NCBI RefSeq assembly: GCF_023195755.1
Contig: NZ_CP096203.1
Coordinates: 1,550,001-1,614,000 of the forward strand
Origin: Chryseobacterium nepalense
GTDB taxonomy: Bacteria; Bacteroidota; Bacteroidia; Flavobacteriales; Weeksellaceae
Reading direction: 5' to 3'
DNA length: 64,000 bases
Positions 11,924 to 36,191 of this stretch are shown piece by piece; within the stretch, counting starts at the first letter, position 1; every line of letters starts with the position of its first letter. Both the position numbers and the translations under genes were made by a program. The notes below the pieces were generated by a model. The model searched no databases, was not told the DNA's origin, and saw nothing but the letters and a program-made list of their open reading frames with translations.

Positions 11924-12322
11924 TTATGCACTAAATTCAATGCCGCCAACATACGTCAGAGAGAAAAAATCGTTCTCAACGGAAACGGGCTTCGGAACCT
12001 GTCCTTTATTAAGGAAGATGATGGCATTCACTTCAAATTTCAGATTGATCTCATTAAGCCTGTTCACCAATATCGGGAGCCACTGTTCGGCAAAAGAATA
12101 CGCGGCGAATTTTTCATAGATGGTTTTGTTTCCATCTTCATAGCCGTACTCTACAAAATCATGATCAAGCCACACCACATTCTGTGAAGCGGCAAATTTT
12201 GAAATATGGATGTCATCAGATTCTTCAAGGAGATAATAGTTTTCATCTTCTTCCACAAAATCATAAAAATCTTCTTCACTGTTAAAATTTCCTACCCAAA
12301 AATCTAATGTATCTGTATGCAT
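11924..12322 (-). CDS. Imm22-like immunity protein (DUF4284)
   Basis: 132 residues, very acidic. The N-terminus DFWVGNFNSEEDFYDFVEED resembles the Imm22/DUF4284 pattern of an aromatic W-x-G-N-F-x-S-E-E start followed by an acidic stretch. Such proteins neutralise polymorphic toxins in the cytoplasm, but no cognate toxin gene is adjacent. The next gene starts 33 nt downstream. I identified it by motif resemblance only; an alternative is an unrelated small acidic protein. Confidence 0.6.
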   Translation of the reverse strand: MHTDTLDFWVGNFNSEEDFYDFVEEDENYYLLEESDDIHISKFAASQNVVWLDHDFVEYGYEDGNKTIYEKFAAYSFAEQWLPILVNRLNEINLKFEVNAIIFLNKGQVPKPVSVENDFFSLTYVGGIEFSA

Positions 12323-12362
12323 TGTTAATTTTCTTGTTTATGGCTTCAAAGTTAGGATATAT

Positions 12363-13112
12363 TTAGTCAAAATAAGGTTTCAATTCCTGTAAAAATTTGA
12401 TTTGTTCGGTAATGTGCTTAACGCTCAATTCAGGATTTATAATGACCTGATCCAAGCTTTTTAAATATTTTTCAGAACTTCCTTTGCCTTCTTGCTGTTC
12501 AATTATTTTAGCAATCTGAATATTTCTTACTTTGGAAATTTCACCTTGTTCAATCAGCATCTTGTTCCATAGTTTCAAGTATTTAGAAAGGTTATTTGTT
12601 TTATTGATAATGTCAAGATAAGCTACAGCTTCCAATACAGCTTGCTGATCAAAGTCAAGCTCAGGTTTTTGCAAATAATATTCTAAATATTGATGAAGAT
12701 ATTCTATTGTTTCAGGAGTATTATGATAAGCAAGAACCAGAGCATATAAATCTCCCGCATAGCACACTTCACTTTTGAGTAAATGAACACCAATGATGGG
12801 TATTTGACTTTCATAATTTTTCAATACAGACAGATAAGCTCCAACTGTTCTGGTTCTCCAATTAAAATCTCCTAAGAGCGCTAAAGTTACATCTTCGGTC
12901 AATTCATTTTTCAATTCCAGAAGATAATCTACCCACGAAAGGTCATGGGTATTTCTTATTTTCATATATAATGGAAGAACCCATTTATCGGTAAACTCTT
13001 TACTTAACTGAAAATTATTCTGATGACTTTCTAACTGGTTAAAAACAGAAGCATGCCTTATTATTGCTCCTGCTGAATGTAAATTTAATTCTTCCTGAAA
13101 CTCGTTATTCAT
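12363..13112 (-). CDS. Hypothetical protein, possibly DUF6000-like
   Basis: 249 residues, helical, cytoplasmic. The central segment ALLGDFNWRTRTVGAYLSVL has the Leu-Leu-Gly then Trp-Arg pattern seen in DUF6000-type proteins, which are common near polymorphic toxin and immunity genes; this assignment is tentative. It lies between a small membrane protein gene (19 nt upstream) and the Imm22-like gene (40 nt downstream) in the same minus-strand series. Confidence 0.65.
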   Translation of the reverse strand: MNNEFQEELNLHSAGAIIRHASVFNQLESHQNNFQLSKEFTDKWVLPLYMKIRNTHDLSWVDYLLELKNELTEDVTLALLGDFNWRTRTVGAYLSVLKNYESQIPIIGVHLLKSEVCYAGDLYALVLAYHNTPETIEYLHQYLEYYLQKPELDFDQQAVLEAVAYLDIINKTNNLSKYLKLWNKMLIEQGEISKVRNIQIAKIIEQQEGKGSSEKYLKSLDQVIINPELSVKHITEQIKFLQELKPYFD

Positions 13113-13131
13113 GTTAAAATAATGATTAGTC

Positions 13132-13524
13132 TTAATACAATTTAAATGATAAAATAAACATACTTAAAAAATAATACAGCATTGAAGCACTGAGAAATAA
13201 AGTACAGAATATTACATTAAAGCTAAAATATCCACGTATAATAGGGATATTTTCCAATATGGAATTGATTCCGTAAAGCATTAAAAAATATCCTGGAATT
13301 AAAAAATTCATCAATACCAAAAAGAAGCAGTTTTGTAATACTTCATCGTAGAAAAATCCGGGAGTTATTGCAATGATGTACAGACTTGAAATAATTGAAA
13401 CAGCAAAAATTATGGTTACATATATCTTTAACTTCAATTGCTTATTTTCCCTCCTAAAAAACAGAAAATAATGGAAATTTGATATTCCCAATAAAATTGT
13501 TATAAAAATTAAAAATTCCTGCAT
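13132..13524 (-). CDS. Small multi-pass membrane protein
   Basis: 130 residues from the chosen ATG (MQEFLIFITILLG) with four predicted helices covering most of the chain. A start nine codons further upstream (13551) would overlap the preceding gene by 26 nt. The ATG at 13524 lies 1 nt after that gene's stop and is preferred. No family recognised. Confidence 0.65.
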   Translation of the reverse strand: MQEFLIFITILLGISNFHYFLFFRRENKQLKLKIYVTIIFAVSIISSLYIIAITPGFFYDEVLQNCFFLVLMNFLIPGYFLMLYGINSILENIPIIRGYFSFNVIFCTLFLSASMLYYFLSMFILSFKLY

Positions 13525-13525
13525 C

Positions 13526-14083
13526 TTATAAAATTCTCTTTCCCGCTTCACTTTCCTGAATCGTCTTTTCCAATCTTGACAATCTGGTTTTTTCCTGTTT
13601 CGCCCGCATGATCCAGTGCAGCATTACTTTTTTATAAGAAGGCGCCTGATTGTTGAAAAATGCCCAGGCTTTTTTGTTGTCCTTAAATTGTTTTTCAAAG
13701 TCCGGACTCAATGCAGCGGTTTCATTTTCGTGAGAGTATATTGCTGATTTCTCTTCCTTTCTAAGCTGAAAAGCCTTTTCTCCGGCCTCTGTCATGAGAC
13801 CTGCATTTGTAAGTTCTTCCATTTTCCTGATATTAACGGCACTCCAGATGCTTGTCGGTTTTCTCGGTGTAAAACGGATGCTGTAACTTTCTTCATCAAC
13901 AGATCTCCGCACGCCGTCTATCCATCCGAAACATAAAGCCTGATCTACAGATTCCGGCCAAGTTATGGAAGGTTTCCCGGTTCCGACTTTGTAAAATCCG
14001 ACCAGCAGTTCTTTTTCTGACTGATGGTTTTCTTCAAGCCATTTTCTGAATTTCTGCGGTGTAGAAAAAAAGGTTGGTTTCAT
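13526..14083 (-). CDS. YdeI/OmpD-associated family protein
   Basis: 185 residues. The N-terminal region (FFSTPQKFRKWLEENH; LLVGFYKVGTGKPSITW; VDQALCFGWIDGVRR; YSIRFTPRKPTSIWS) is characteristic of the YdeI/OmpD-associated family, whose biochemical role is poorly defined and which has been linked to bacteriocin protection. The start is set at the ATG giving MKPTFFSTPQKF; the longer reading frame would begin inside the GC-rich palindrome at 14133-14175. It is the first gene of the tightly packed series that ends at 9184. Confidence 0.88.
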   Translation of the reverse strand: MKPTFFSTPQKFRKWLEENHQSEKELLVGFYKVGTGKPSITWPESVDQALCFGWIDGVRRSVDEESYSIRFTPRKPTSIWSAVNIRKMEELTNAGLMTEAGEKAFQLRKEEKSAIYSHENETAALSPDFEKQFKDNKKAWAFFNNQAPSYKKVMLHWIMRAKQEKTRLSRLEKTIQESEAGKRIL

Positions 14084-14132
14084 GGTTTCAAACTTTCGTC
14101 TAAAATACTTATTTTTCTTTACAAGGTCTTGA

Positions 14133-14175
14133 AGGATTTCGGGGGCGGGAGCTTTGCTCCCGCCCCCGAAATCCT
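14133..14175. repeat. 43-bp perfect palindrome, very GC-rich
   Basis: A 20-bp perfect stem with loop TTT; the central arms read GGGGGCGGGAGC and GCTCCCGCCCCC. It stands between the YdeI-family gene and the upstream terminator. There is no T-tract right after it on either strand, so it is not a typical terminator. It may be a dispersed palindromic element or an mRNA-stabilising leader structure. Confidence 0.85.
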
Positions 14176-14201
14176 CTATCATTTAATTTTTTATATATAA
14201 T

Positions 14202-14229
14202 ACAAAAGACCTCATCGAGGTCTTTGTTT
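14202..14229 (-). terminator. Terminator after the Imm51-like gene
   Basis: A 9-bp perfect stem (AAAGACCTC/GAGGTCTTT, loop of 3) begins 6 nt after the stop codon at 14231. T-tracts are present on both strands, so it could work in both directions. Confidence 0.82.
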
Positions 14230-14230
14230 T

Positions 14231-14581
14231 TTAATCTATTTCTGCTTTCAGGAAAAGATCCTGAATCTGTATTTCATCTTCACAGGTTTTTTTAAAGTCT
14301 GTTACAAATTCTTTTAAGCGTTCCGGATTGTTGGAATAGGCACAAAACATGTCGGCTTCCGGATCAAATTTAATTTCATCTGCAAGATCGGGCCTTTTTT
14401 CTTCTACAAAAACTTTCGCAAGTGAAGCCCAATCGTATCCATTGCCTTCGAAACCTTCATCTTTGCGCCACTCGAAAATTTCGGGTTTGTAGGTTCCTGC
14501 ATTTAAACATACTGAAAAAGTCTTTTCTGAGGCTACCCAAAAAAAGGGTTTGATTGCCGTTTCAAAATTGTACGCTTCCAT
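14231..14581 (-). CDS. Imm51-like immunity protein
   Basis: 116 residues, acidic and cytoplasmic. The pattern PFFWV, FSVCLNAGTYKPE, GNGYDWASLAKVFVEE, IKFDPEADMFCAYS followed by a Leu-Phe-rich C-terminus fits the Imm51 immunity family of polymorphic toxin systems. The cognate toxin is not adjacent. It is monocistronic, with its own terminator, and lies between the T6SS tube gene tssD and the YdeI-family gene, which suggests protection against an effector delivered by sister cells. Confidence 0.72.
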   Translation of the reverse strand: MEAYNFETAIKPFFWVASEKTFSVCLNAGTYKPEIFEWRKDEGFEGNGYDWASLAKVFVEEKRPDLADEIKFDPEADMFCAYSNNPERLKEFVTDFKKTCEDEIQIQDLFLKAEID

Positions 14582-14762: not shown

Positions 14763-15173
14763 TTAGTTACCGCTGCTTGGCCAAAGACCCTCGTATTTAG
14801 AATTTCCGTAGTCGATTGTTTCGGCACTTACAATGAAACTGATCAGCATGCTGTTTTCGTCTACAGCGTCAAAATCTACTTCATGCTGAATTACATATCC
14901 GTTTTCCCAGTTTAATGTGATCAATGTGCCTTCTTCGTGGGATTTGTTAAATGTAATTTCACCTGTTGTAGGTTTGTATTTTCCGTTCAGTAAACTTTCC
15001 AGGATATCTGATTTTTCAGTGGCTTCTACTGTAACTTTAATTAATGCGTTTGATGGGTCTGAAGCTACTCTCCCAGATACGTCCGTTGATCTTGACACAC
15101 TGTAATTCAGCTTTAATAATTTTTGACCTTCTCCTCCGTTGAATTTTAAAATTCCTCTTGAATTTGTTGCCAT
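14763..15173 (-). CDS. tssD: T6SS tube protein TssD (Hcp), copy 1
   Basis: 136 residues, the Bacteroidetes Hcp-like family (TssD) that stacks into the inner tube of the T6SS and is expelled with the effectors. The N-terminus is MATNSRGILKFNGGEGQKLL. It differs from the copy at 23924-24328 at only three shared positions and in two extra C-terminal residues (GN). No Shine-Dalgarno sequence is present. A -7 element and two palindromes lie upstream. The gene has its own terminator, consistent with high separate expression of a tube subunit. Confidence 0.93.
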   Translation of the reverse strand: MATNSRGILKFNGGEGQKLLKLNYSVSRSTDVSGRVASDPSNALIKVTVEATEKSDILESLLNGKYKPTTGEITFNKSHEEGTLITLNWENGYVIQHEVDFDAVDENSMLISFIVSAETIDYGNSKYEGLWPSSGN

Positions 15174-15237: not shown

Positions 15238-15245
15238 CAAAGATA
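15238..15245 (-). promoter_or_regulatory. Putative -7 element of tssD copy 1
   Basis: TATCTTTG on the minus strand (TAnnTTTG consensus), about 65 nt upstream of the start codon. The same octamer stands at the equivalent place upstream of tssD copy 2. Confidence 0.65.
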
Positions 15246-15294
15246 GATCACAAATTTTAATTCCGAAAATTTTGTAATATTAATTTTATTTTTT

Positions 15295-15331
15295 GTCGTA
15301 ATTCTACGATTTGATGTCGTAATTCTACTAC
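15295..15331. promoter_or_regulatory. Tandem palindromes upstream of tssD copy 1 (candidate operator)
   Basis: Two dyads begin at 15295 (GTCGTAATTCTACGA) and 15316 (GTCGTAATTCTACTAC), 21 bp apart, i.e. two helical turns. The nearer dyad centre is about 57 bp upstream of the -7 box. The same pair with the same spacings precedes tssD copy 2. The position fits an activator site. In the remaining 380-nt gene-free region (15174-15553) I see the -7 box, AT-rich DNA and a terminator only. Confidence 0.68.
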
Positions 15332-23923: not shown

Positions 23924-24328
23924 TTAGCTTGAAGGCCAAAGTCCTTCATACTTAGAATTTCCGTAATCAATTGTTTCTGCACTGATGATAAAGCTGATCA
24001 GCATGCTGTTTTCGTCTACGGCATCAAAATCTACTTCGTGCTGGATTACATATCCGTTTTCCCAGTTTAATGTGATCAATGTGCCTTCTTCGTGGGATTT
24101 GTTGAAAGTGATTTCACCTGTTGTAGGCTTGTATTTTCCGTTGAGTAAACTTTCCAGAATATCTGATTTTTCAGTTGCTTCTACAGTTACTTTGATGATT
24201 GCGTTGGAAGGATCTGAAGCTACTCTGCCCGATACATCTGTTGATCTTGACACACTGTAGTTCAGCTTTAATAGTTTTTGACCTTCTCCTCCATTGAATT
24301 TAAGAATTCCTCTTGAATTTGCTGCCAT
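23924..24328 (-). CDS. tssD: T6SS tube protein TssD (Hcp), copy 2
   Basis: 134 residues, nearly identical to the copy at 14763-15173 (Ala for Thr at position 3, Ile for Leu near 44, Ile for Val near 113, no final Gly-Asn). The nucleotide sequences differ more, mostly at third codon positions. It forms the inner tube and is placed between the LysM protein gene and clpV. The promoter region is conserved with copy 1. Having two almost identical tube genes suggests dosage or separate cargo-specific expression. Confidence 0.93.
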   Translation of the reverse strand: MAANSRGILKFNGGEGQKLLKLNYSVSRSTDVSGRVASDPSNAIIKVTVEATEKSDILESLLNGKYKPTTGEITFNKSHEEGTLITLNWENGYVIQHEVDFDAVDENSMLISFIISAETIDYGNSKYEGLWPSS

Positions 24329-24379: not shown

Positions 24380-24387
24380 CAAAGATA
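24380..24387 (-). promoter_or_regulatory. Putative -7 element of tssD copy 2
   Basis: TATCTTTG on the minus strand, about 52 nt upstream of the start codon; the same octamer as at tssD copy 1. Confidence 0.65.
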
Positions 24388-24436: not shown

Positions 24437-24473
24437 GTAGTAATACTACGATTTGATGTCGTAATTCTACGAC
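24437..24473. promoter_or_regulatory. Tandem palindromes upstream of tssD copy 2 (candidate operator)
   Basis: GTAGTAATACTAC at 24437 and the perfect dyad GTCGTAATTCTACGAC at 24458, offset by 21 bp. The nearer dyad is centred 57 bp from the -7 box, exactly as at tssD copy 1. Confidence 0.7.
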
Positions 24474-34266: not shown

Positions 34267-34794
34267 TTACTGGGATCTCGACTGTAAAGCGGTCTCACGC
34301 TGAAAGAGCTGGCTTTTCTTTTCTTTAAACCCGATGGAGCATTCATCAAACTGCTTTTCAAAGTTTTTGATATTTTCCGTTTTACTGGAAATTATTTTTT
34401 TATCGTTGAAATACATTTTGTAAAATTTTGCGATCTGCGGATATGCTTCTTTTCTGATATCGTTGATATTGTCTCCGTTCTGATAATATCCGGCCACATC
34501 GTTGATTCCGTACATGATATTATTTTCCACAAAAGGCTGTGGAGCTTCGTCCGTAAGTTTATTGATCATAGAAAAGGTACTGTCCATCACTTTGAAAGAT
34601 GACTTCTGCTTCTGATCGAATTTGGCCTTTTCTTCAAGCATCTGTATGGAAACTATATCGTTATCCGAAAACGGAGACTGAAAAGCCCGTAAGAAAATGA
34701 TTCCCATAAAAATAAGCGCTGCAAAAAGCATTAAGATTAAATATAAAAACTGATAATGCCTTTCTTTTTTTGATAATGTGATTTGTCCTTGCAT
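34267..34794 (-). CDS. TssO-like single-pass membrane protein of T6SS (copy 2)
   Basis: 175 residues: a short cytoplasmic N-terminus, one helix at about 16-38 (LYLILMLFAALIFMGIIFL), then a mostly helical periplasmic domain. The topology and size match the neighbouring 178-residue protein, and both resemble the TssO family of subtype iii T6SS. The gap between the two is 11 nt, indicating one transcript. They presumably form part of the trans-envelope complex with the PKD protein and TssR. Confidence 0.75.
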   Translation of the reverse strand: MQGQITLSKKERHYQFLYLILMLFAALIFMGIIFLRAFQSPFSDNDIVSIQMLEEKAKFDQKQKSSFKVMDSTFSMINKLTDEAPQPFVENNIMYGINDVAGYYQNGDNINDIRKEAYPQIAKFYKMYFNDKKIISSKTENIKNFEKQFDECSIGFKEKKSQLFQRETALQSRSQ

Positions 34795-34805
34795 AGTTTT
34801 CGTTT

Positions 34806-35342
34806 TTATCTTCTTCTTCTCATTCCTGAAAATTTTCTGGTAGGGTCTACTTTCAGTTCACTGTTGATTATTCCGATTTTTCCTTTACATTCGTTGAGAT
34901 TCCTTAAAGCCACCTGTTCTTTGTAGGAAACATCAATGATCTGTTTCTTTAAGGCCAGCATAGGTTCGATCTGCTTCATAAGAATGGAATAATGCTTAAA
35001 ATTATCAGCACTGTCCTTATCCATTGCATTTCTTGCATTTCTCACATCTTCCATGATTGCGTTTCTGAGGAAAATATCATTTTGCACCCGGTTAATATCC
35101 AGTTGATCCATCCGGTAAAATATACTGTCTACATGATCTTTCAGAAGATTGCTTCTGGTAAGAAGATAGCGGTAGTCGTCCGCTTCTTTTTTGACACCCT
35201 GTCTTTGGATGTCATAACTTTTAAAAAAGAAAAATATGCAGGTGAAGGATACACCCGATAGAACGATAAACGATAGAATAAATTTCCAAATGCCTATCCT
35301 GACGTCTGCTTTGTTTAATTTTTGCTCCCGGTTCGAAGACAT
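34806..35342 (-). CDS. tssO: TssO family T6SS membrane protein (copy 1)
   Basis: 178 residues: one membrane helix at about 22-42 (FILSFIVLSGVSFTCIFFFF), followed by a long helical periplasmic region with a coiled-coil character and an Arg-rich C-terminus (SGMRRRR). It is the first gene of the minus-strand T6SS series and is divergent from the LuxR-type regulator, with 177 nt of AT-rich DNA between them. TssO is specific to subtype iii systems. Confidence 0.78.
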   Translation of the reverse strand: MSSNREQKLNKADVRIGIWKFILSFIVLSGVSFTCIFFFFKSYDIQRQGVKKEADDYRYLLTRSNLLKDHVDSIFYRMDQLDINRVQNDIFLRNAIMEDVRNARNAMDKDSADNFKHYSILMKQIEPMLALKKQIIDVSYKEQVALRNLNECKGKIGIINSELKVDPTRKFSGMRRRR

Positions 35343-35519: not shown

Positions 35520-36191
35520 GTGAGCAAATTATTGACCAAAACTGTGCGGTTTTCCATAGCAGACAGTGATTTTTATTTTAAAAAGATCCTGATTAAAATG
35601 CTTGCCGAAAATCCGTTCTATATACTTCTTAATGACTGCAACAATGGCCATGAATTGATCAGCAGGAATTACAGAAGGCAGGAAGACGTATTTATTGTAG
35701 AGCTTTTTATGCCGGTATTAAGCGGTCTTGAAGCGATAAAATACATCCGTAAAAGCAATACAGAAACACCTATCATCACTTATTCCGGAACGTACCAGGA
35801 AGATATGGCCGAGATTCTTTCTAAAATTCCTAATGTATATTACTGTCAGAAAAAAAGCAATGTCATTAAAGATATTATCAAAGGGAAAATAGCAGGCGAC
35901 ACCTTTGATTACGAAATATATAGCCAACAATGGGAACAGCAGCCGTTGGCCGTAATGGAATATATGGAACGACAGAAAAAAAGTCAGGAAGAACTCTCAC
36001 CAACGGAAATCCAGCTTATGAAATTCTGCTATGAAGGCTTCAGTAATAAAGAAATTGCTGAAAAGCTGAACCTCAGTACCAGAACAATTGATACTTACAT
36101 CAACCGCCTTACAGAAAAACTGGGACTGAAGACAAAACTTCACCTTATCCGCTTCTGTGTGGAGAACGGATACTATAATTCCAGTATGTAA
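35520..36191 (+). CDS. LuxR/NarL-type response regulator with Glu in place of the phospho-Asp
   Basis: 223 residues starting at GTG. The receiver domain (about 8-125) has the acidic pair in SIADSD, Ser in ITYSGTY and Lys in YYCQKK, but the phospho-acceptor position reads VELFMP where the family has DxxMP, so Glu replaces Asp. The LuxR HTH (about 155-218) is complete: LSPTEIQLMKFCYEGFSNKEIAEKLNLSTRTIDTYINRLTEKLG. It is divergent from the tssO-like genes, making it a natural candidate regulator of the T6SS. Glu can mimic phospho-Asp, so activity may be constitutive or controlled by amount. Confidence 0.88.
   Translation: MSKLLTKTVRFSIADSDFYFKKILIKMLAENPFYILLNDCNNGHELISRNYRRQEDVFIVELFMPVLSGLEAIKYIRKSNTETPIITYSGTYQEDMAEILSKIPNVYYCQKKSNVIKDIIKGKIAGDTFDYEIYSQQWEQQPLAVMEYMERQKKSQEELSPTEIQLMKFCYEGFSNKEIAEKLNLSTRTIDTYINRLTEKLGLKTKLHLIRFCVENGYYNSSM

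Follow-up and report, generated by a model that had tools for sequence, protein, structure and literature searches.

Paired 16-bp dyads at the tssD promoters of Chryseobacterium as the probable operator of a T6SS-linked NarL/LuxR-type regulator

In Proteobacteria, dedicated LuxR-type activators of the T6SS exist, for example QstR of Vibrio. In Bacteroidota, the T6SS is quite ubiquitous in Chryseobacterium and Elizabethkingia (PMC10781749), and no transcriptional regulator of a Bacteroidota T6SS is described in the literature that we searched, which makes the present finding of interest. Among NarL-type regulators of other lineages, BvgA binds as head-to-head dimers that are centred every 22 bp on one face of the DNA (PMC7250471), and BldM is an atypical NarL-type regulator that acts on a 16-bp palindrome (PMC4125116). 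The switching of pseudo-receiver regulators has been called a mystery (PMC12632262).

The window analysed here, a stretch of 64,000 nucleotides from Chryseobacterium nepalense, carries paired dyads upstream of two tssD genes and a gene for a NarL/LuxR-type protein at 35520-36191. As at the Pfha and Pptx promoters bound by the NarL-family protein BvgA of Bordetella, inverted repeats form serial dimer sites two helical turns apart, on one face of the DNA and upstream of the core promoter, with binding being a prediction in the present case. However, BvgA uses phosphorylation, its sites are spaced by 22 bp and its series reaches the -35 region (PMC7250471), whereas here the spacing is 21 bp, one to three dyads are present, the receiver is degenerate, and the Chryseobacterium pair ends about 50 bp before the -7 box. 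The orphan atypical NarL-type regulators BldM and WhiI of Streptomyces share with the present protein the NarL architecture, a 16-bp palindrome, a receiver thought to be phosphorylation-independent, and the lack of a kinase gene among the neighbours read; they differ in their site (TCACcCgnncGgGTGA) and their many developmental targets, whereas here the predicted regulon is confined narrowly to the T6SS and the promoter is of the Bacteroidota type. Like QstR of Vibrio, the protein would be a LuxR-type DNA-binding protein for T6SS genes (control is predicted), but it belongs to an unrelated lineage, would act at another promoter type, and accompanies a T6SSiii instead of a T6SSi.

The two tssD promoters contain the following features, for which the dyad sequences are given on the plus strand and the centres are estimates.

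14763..15173, minus strand: tssD copy 1, Hcp tube protein (PF17642, 1.9e-31)
15238..15245, minus strand: -7 box of tssD copy 1, TATCTTTG, read from the sequence
15295..15310, minus strand: near dyad of tssD copy 1, GTCGTAATTCTACGAT, 49 bp from the -7 box, centre about -69.5, PWM score 24.1
15316..15331, minus strand: far dyad of tssD copy 1, GTCGTAATTCTACTAC, centre about -90.5, PWM score 27.3
23924..24328, minus strand: tssD copy 2 (PF17642, 3.8e-32)
24380..24387, minus strand: -7 box of tssD copy 2, TATCTTTG, read from the sequence
24437..24452, minus strand: near dyad of tssD copy 2, GTAGTAATACTACGAT, PWM score 23.3
24458..24473, minus strand: far dyad of tssD copy 2, GTCGTAATTCTACGAC, PWM score 28.2

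Since both tssD genes lie on the minus strand, the sites at 15295-15310 and 24437-24452 are the nearer dyads. The window sequence showed the 37-bp pair exactly at 15295-15331 and 24437-24473, with dyad centres 21 bp apart and with 49 bp from the end of the near dyad, or 57 bp from its centre, to TATCTTTG; the coordinates and both distances given for these paired palindromes in the initial annotation were exact. The form proposed there, GTmGTAATnCTACkAC, holds overall but not at one end: since in each pair the nearer dyad has AT at its end, the form is GTMGTAATNCTACKAY. Dyad symmetry is present in the 16-bp sites, both in the individual sequences and in the pooled alignment. With a symmetric PWM, the four window sites scored 23-28 and the next best non-overlapping place scored below 0 (maximum in 20 shuffled windows, 18), in agreement with the earlier remark that the motif occurs nowhere else in the window. 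The PWM was applied to the window, and the whole genome (3,989,211 bp) was scanned by mismatch-tolerant pattern searches. The 16-bp pattern GTNGTANNNNTACNAC matched with zero mismatches only at the two far dyads, and the genome search that had been proposed for the 37-bp pair, carried out as a pattern search, returned only the two tssD promoters at up to two mismatches and one further stray at three, so that the pair is not randomly scattered. A dispersed or REP-like repeat is ruled out by the absence of further genome copies of the pair. Separately, the region downstream of tssD copy 1 (11924-14581) holds a run of probable immunity genes (Imm22-like, DUF6000, OmdA, and Imm51).

The upstream regions of tssD were compared across Chryseobacterium, a check that the initial annotation had suggested, and the pair was kept, with up to two mismatches, in 143 of 150 genomes; the reversed control gave few matches. 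Four of the seven genomes lacking it have no TssD (G068, G074, G081, and G136), two have only a remote TssD class of about 30% identity (G053 and G071), and G101 has one tssD with one dyad at a gap of 22. In the pairs read in 30 other genomes, the downstream gene was tssD, and a TANNTTTG box lay 49 nt past the near dyad with very few exceptions; this gap was constant while the distance from pair to ATG was mostly 102-129 nt. One tssD of another genome (G002, L039; G002:C1:1799462-1799519) is preceded by three serial dyads in 21-bp steps.

The analysis was extended to nine genera, with 158 non-redundant upstream regions of tssD, of which 157 contained the GTNGTANNNNTACNAC dyad with at most one mismatch, compared with 4 for reversed and 1.3 for block-shuffled sequences; the sole exception belongs to a gene fragment (L109). 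Chance origin of the dyads is ruled out by these pooled controls together with the genome pattern searches and the comparison of PWM scores with shuffled windows. The tssD promoters of the eight genera beyond Chryseobacterium have a single dyad, which rules out a pair that is universal in the family. The distances fell into discrete classes: pairs with 21-bp spacing and 49 bp to the TANNTTTG box (n = 113, plus one triple), single dyads 22 bp from the box (n = 19), and single dyads 48 or 49 bp from it (n = 16), with two more that have a second dyad 155-156 bp upstream. The specified dyad positions carried 1.90-1.96 bits, versus 0.32-0.44 bits in the flanks 25-40 bp upstream. The dyad element is real, and it is very probably functional. 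The flavobacterial -7 box has the consensus TAnnTTTG and lies at -12 to -5 (PMC9723704), and with the boxes placed according to that paper, the dyad centres would fall at -69.5 and -90.5 for the pair and at -69.5 or -68.5, or at -42.5, for the single dyads. Every site is located upstream of the core promoter and clear of the -7 box and the start, and the tssD upstream alignments showed no evident conserved -33 element. Class II activator sites are centred near -42 and class I sites near -62 to -93. The 27-bp step between the position classes is not an integral number of helical turns, which counts against the explanation preferred below.

Dyads were also found away from intact tssD genes, and a restriction of the element to such genes is ruled out: pairs or dyads occur at decayed tssD copies and single dyads at cargo operons. 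Among 161 distinct perfect dyads in all loci, 24 had no recognised tssD within the next 450 bp downstream in the same locus. Of those examined, dyads or pairs with a -7 box front tssD copies that are decayed or unrecognisable in C. luteum (L199:4941), C. lathyri (L206:5087), C. endalhagicum (L226:4892), and C. vrystaatense (L235:4925-4961); the promoter thus persists longer than the gene. In G101 (L116/L258), a single dyad stands ahead of a LysM-like gene that heads a DUF4280/M23 operon, and further single dyads front a LysM-like gene (G178, L130), a DUF4280 gene (G275, L124), and, at a gap of 22, vgrG (G298, L133); the label LysM-like was judged from the N-terminus, with no database match behind it. 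The cargo dyads in L116, L124, and L130 have no canonical -7 box at the expected distance, a second point against the preferred explanation. Several leftover sites were cut by contig ends or appeared to be chance sites within genes.

The candidate regulator gene and its neighbours in the window are as follows.

34267..35342, minus strand: two tssO genes adjoining the regulator gene (PF17561; synteny in L065-L067, L071, L075, L083, L254, and L257)
35520..36191, plus strand: candidate dyad binder, NarL/LuxR-type atypical response regulator (PF00196, 5.9e-16; PF00072, 1.2e-8), with Glu61 at the phospho-Asp position

The protein has the domains of the NarL/FixJ family (PF00072 at 35.5 bits, cut-off 30.2; PF00196 at 58.3 bits, cut-off 23.5), arranged as an N-terminal receiver and a C-terminal LuxR/GerE-type HTH, and matches 4hye/4zmr, EvgA, and NarL over its full length. 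A structure model, with a mean pLDDT of 65 and hence of low confidence, showed the (beta-alpha)5 order followed by the HTH, with the recognition helix at 187-200. The receiver, unlike that of a canonical phosphorylated response regulator, has no phospho-acceptor Asp at the end of beta3, a feature that the initial annotation of this protein had missed; the position was verified by alignment to solved relatives and lies at the beta3 end in the model. It is Glu in 80 of 80 Chryseobacterium loci, with Asp in one further species (L061), and mostly Asn in other genera, with a few Ser or Asp. In the orthologue alignment, one member of the acidic DD pair is Ser or Asn, and Ser89 and Lys111 are retained. 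By a published definition (PMC12632262) the protein is an atypical response regulator, and Glu can serve as a phosphomimetic. It is also an orphan, with tssO, HU, and RNase E/G genes as neighbours and no adjacent sensor kinase. Control by ordinary phosphotransfer is probably not at work, and the missing Asp speaks against kinase-driven control. Cys40 and Cys109 are invariant among the aligned orthologues, and redox control through them may be considered as a lead only. A PWM scan of the window found no dyad at the regulator's own promoter, which also counts against the preferred explanation, and none between the regulator and tssO through which this region could be autoregulated.

Next to the regulator gene lies tssO, both in the window and in the genera checked; the two are divergent in Chryseobacterium and collinear in other genera. 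The cluster has the components of a T6SSiii, namely TssO (PF17561), TssR (PF17643/PF20780-20782), TssD (PF17642), a ClpV-like AAA protein, and VgrG-like genes, the subtype being as defined in PMC10781749. The cluster ORFs scanned from 9184 to 35342 include no further gene recognisable as coding for a transcription factor. A close orthologue (79-100% identity) is present in 142 of the 150 Chryseobacterium genomes, and that of G101 is 64% identical; six genomes lack both pair and regulator, and a draft (G021) lacks the regulator only. Across the sampled family, eight genera besides Chryseobacterium have orthologues at 60-68% identity, and there 22 of the 23 regulator-positive genomes have full canonical tssD and the remaining one (G171) has a fragmented tssD. 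At E <= 1e-40, no regulator was found outside the family in 398 genomes of the order, in which three of 109 sampled genera had it, all within the family. These counts are phylogenetically non-independent and the regulator gene is inherited with the cluster, so the co-occurrence supports, but does not prove, a functional link. Genomes that have only remote TssD lacked the regulator and, where read, the dyad. The sole canonical tssD without a regulator in the family sample outside the genus is that of G235 (G235:C23:185711-186112; L170, L251, and L252), whose promoter keeps the dyad, contrary to the preferred explanation; searches of the whole genome and of the 319-kb contig found no regulator. 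Of the cluster genes tested, that contig yielded only tssD and vgrG, so that G235, the single case to fit imperfectly, probably carries an orphan or relict island. The remote second TssD class (about 30% identity, tandem copies) is also present without a dyad in C. nepalense itself (G000:C1:2605063-2606482; L054 and L111) and in L048-L053, L055, and L085. Some 50-60 nt ahead of the ATG, several of its promoters have a different conserved element, roughly ATATATTCCATNTTTGGTANTATTA, that could point to a second regulator or sigma factor.

Taken together, the dyads are probably the operator of the homodimeric, T6SS-linked NarL/LuxR-type regulator encoded at 35520-36191, which would activate tssD. 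The linkage to tssO, the near one-to-one co-occurrence, and the protein family make this protein the likely binder; the upstream position of the sites, together with a -33 region that shows no evident conserved element, suggests an activator rather than a repressor. One homodimer would occupy each 16-bp dyad through GTNGTA half-sites. The Chryseobacterium pair would place two dimers on the same DNA face at about -69.5 and -90.5, with 21 bp or two turns of the helix between their centres, and these would recruit RNA polymerase, probably through the alpha-CTD, to a promoter with a -7 box and no evident conserved -33 element. In related genera, a single dimer would bind, either near -69.5 or near -42.5, the latter next to the -33 region in a class II-like manner. 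The regulon would comprise every canonical tssD copy and, in some species, T6SS cargo genes (vgrG and LysM/DUF4280 effector operons). As the receiver lacks the phospho-Asp, activity would be set by the amount of regulator, a ligand, the redox state, or a partner protein, and probably not by a kinase; the identity of the binder, activation rather than repression, the polymerase contacts, and the signal are all predictions. The earlier proposal of a dimer-site pair controlling tssD is strongly supported by the conservation in 143 of 150 genomes, the fixed phase to the -7 box, and the single dyad in eight other genera. Its target, T6SS tube synthesis, is slightly too narrow, because a few dyads in other genera front vgrG or LysM/DUF4280 cargo operons.

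Other readings of the same sites were weighed. The operator could be real and yet be bound by an unlinked regulator (NarL-type, Crp/Fnr, TetR, or GntR), with the 35520 protein acting elsewhere: many transcription factors use palindromes of 14-20 bp, other NarL-type paralogues with 22-30% identity exist in these genomes, and G235 has the dyad without the orthologue. This is possible but unlikely, as nearly all occurrences of the dyad are at T6SS promoters, its distribution follows that of the orthologue in eight further genera, and an unlinked global regulator should have more perfect sites, of which the C. nepalense genome shows none. Palindromic operators are often repressor sites, and the dyads might serve a repressor, either the 35520 protein or another; the position of the centres, upstream of the core promoter and clear of the -7 box and the start, and alignments in which no -33 element is evidently conserved make repression improbable.

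Shared ancestry alone, in which tssD was duplicated with its upstream region, was the caveat attached to the original observation. It is correct in that the approximately 30 nt before the ATG are alike in the two copies, as is the pair itself, and promoters do persist beside decayed tssD in four species. But the stretch between pair and box and the region further upstream have diverged, the dyad and the -7 box are kept across genera while the flanks are near random, and discrete gap classes are maintained. Duplication of the whole promoter as the sole cause is ruled out by the diverged copies and the cross-genus information content, and shared ancestry as the full account is scarcely tenable.

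For activation by the 35520 protein, the wider picture is of a Bacteroidota T6SS switch, and we lean slightly towards it: a NarL-type pseudo-receiver protein, uncoupled from phosphotransfer, may control a narrow tube and cargo regulon through phased 16-bp dyads, which lineages would have shifted between -42.5, -69.5, and tandem -69.5/-90.5. As T6SS regulation in Bacteroidota is little described, the dyads offer a directly testable switch, and their specificity leads to a hypothesis of one gene and one site for which protein times the production of the tube subunit. The dyad motif may also aid in finding T6SS cargo genes beyond the main cluster, and a pseudo-receiver regulator with a very narrow predicted regulon would be useful for asking how such proteins switch.
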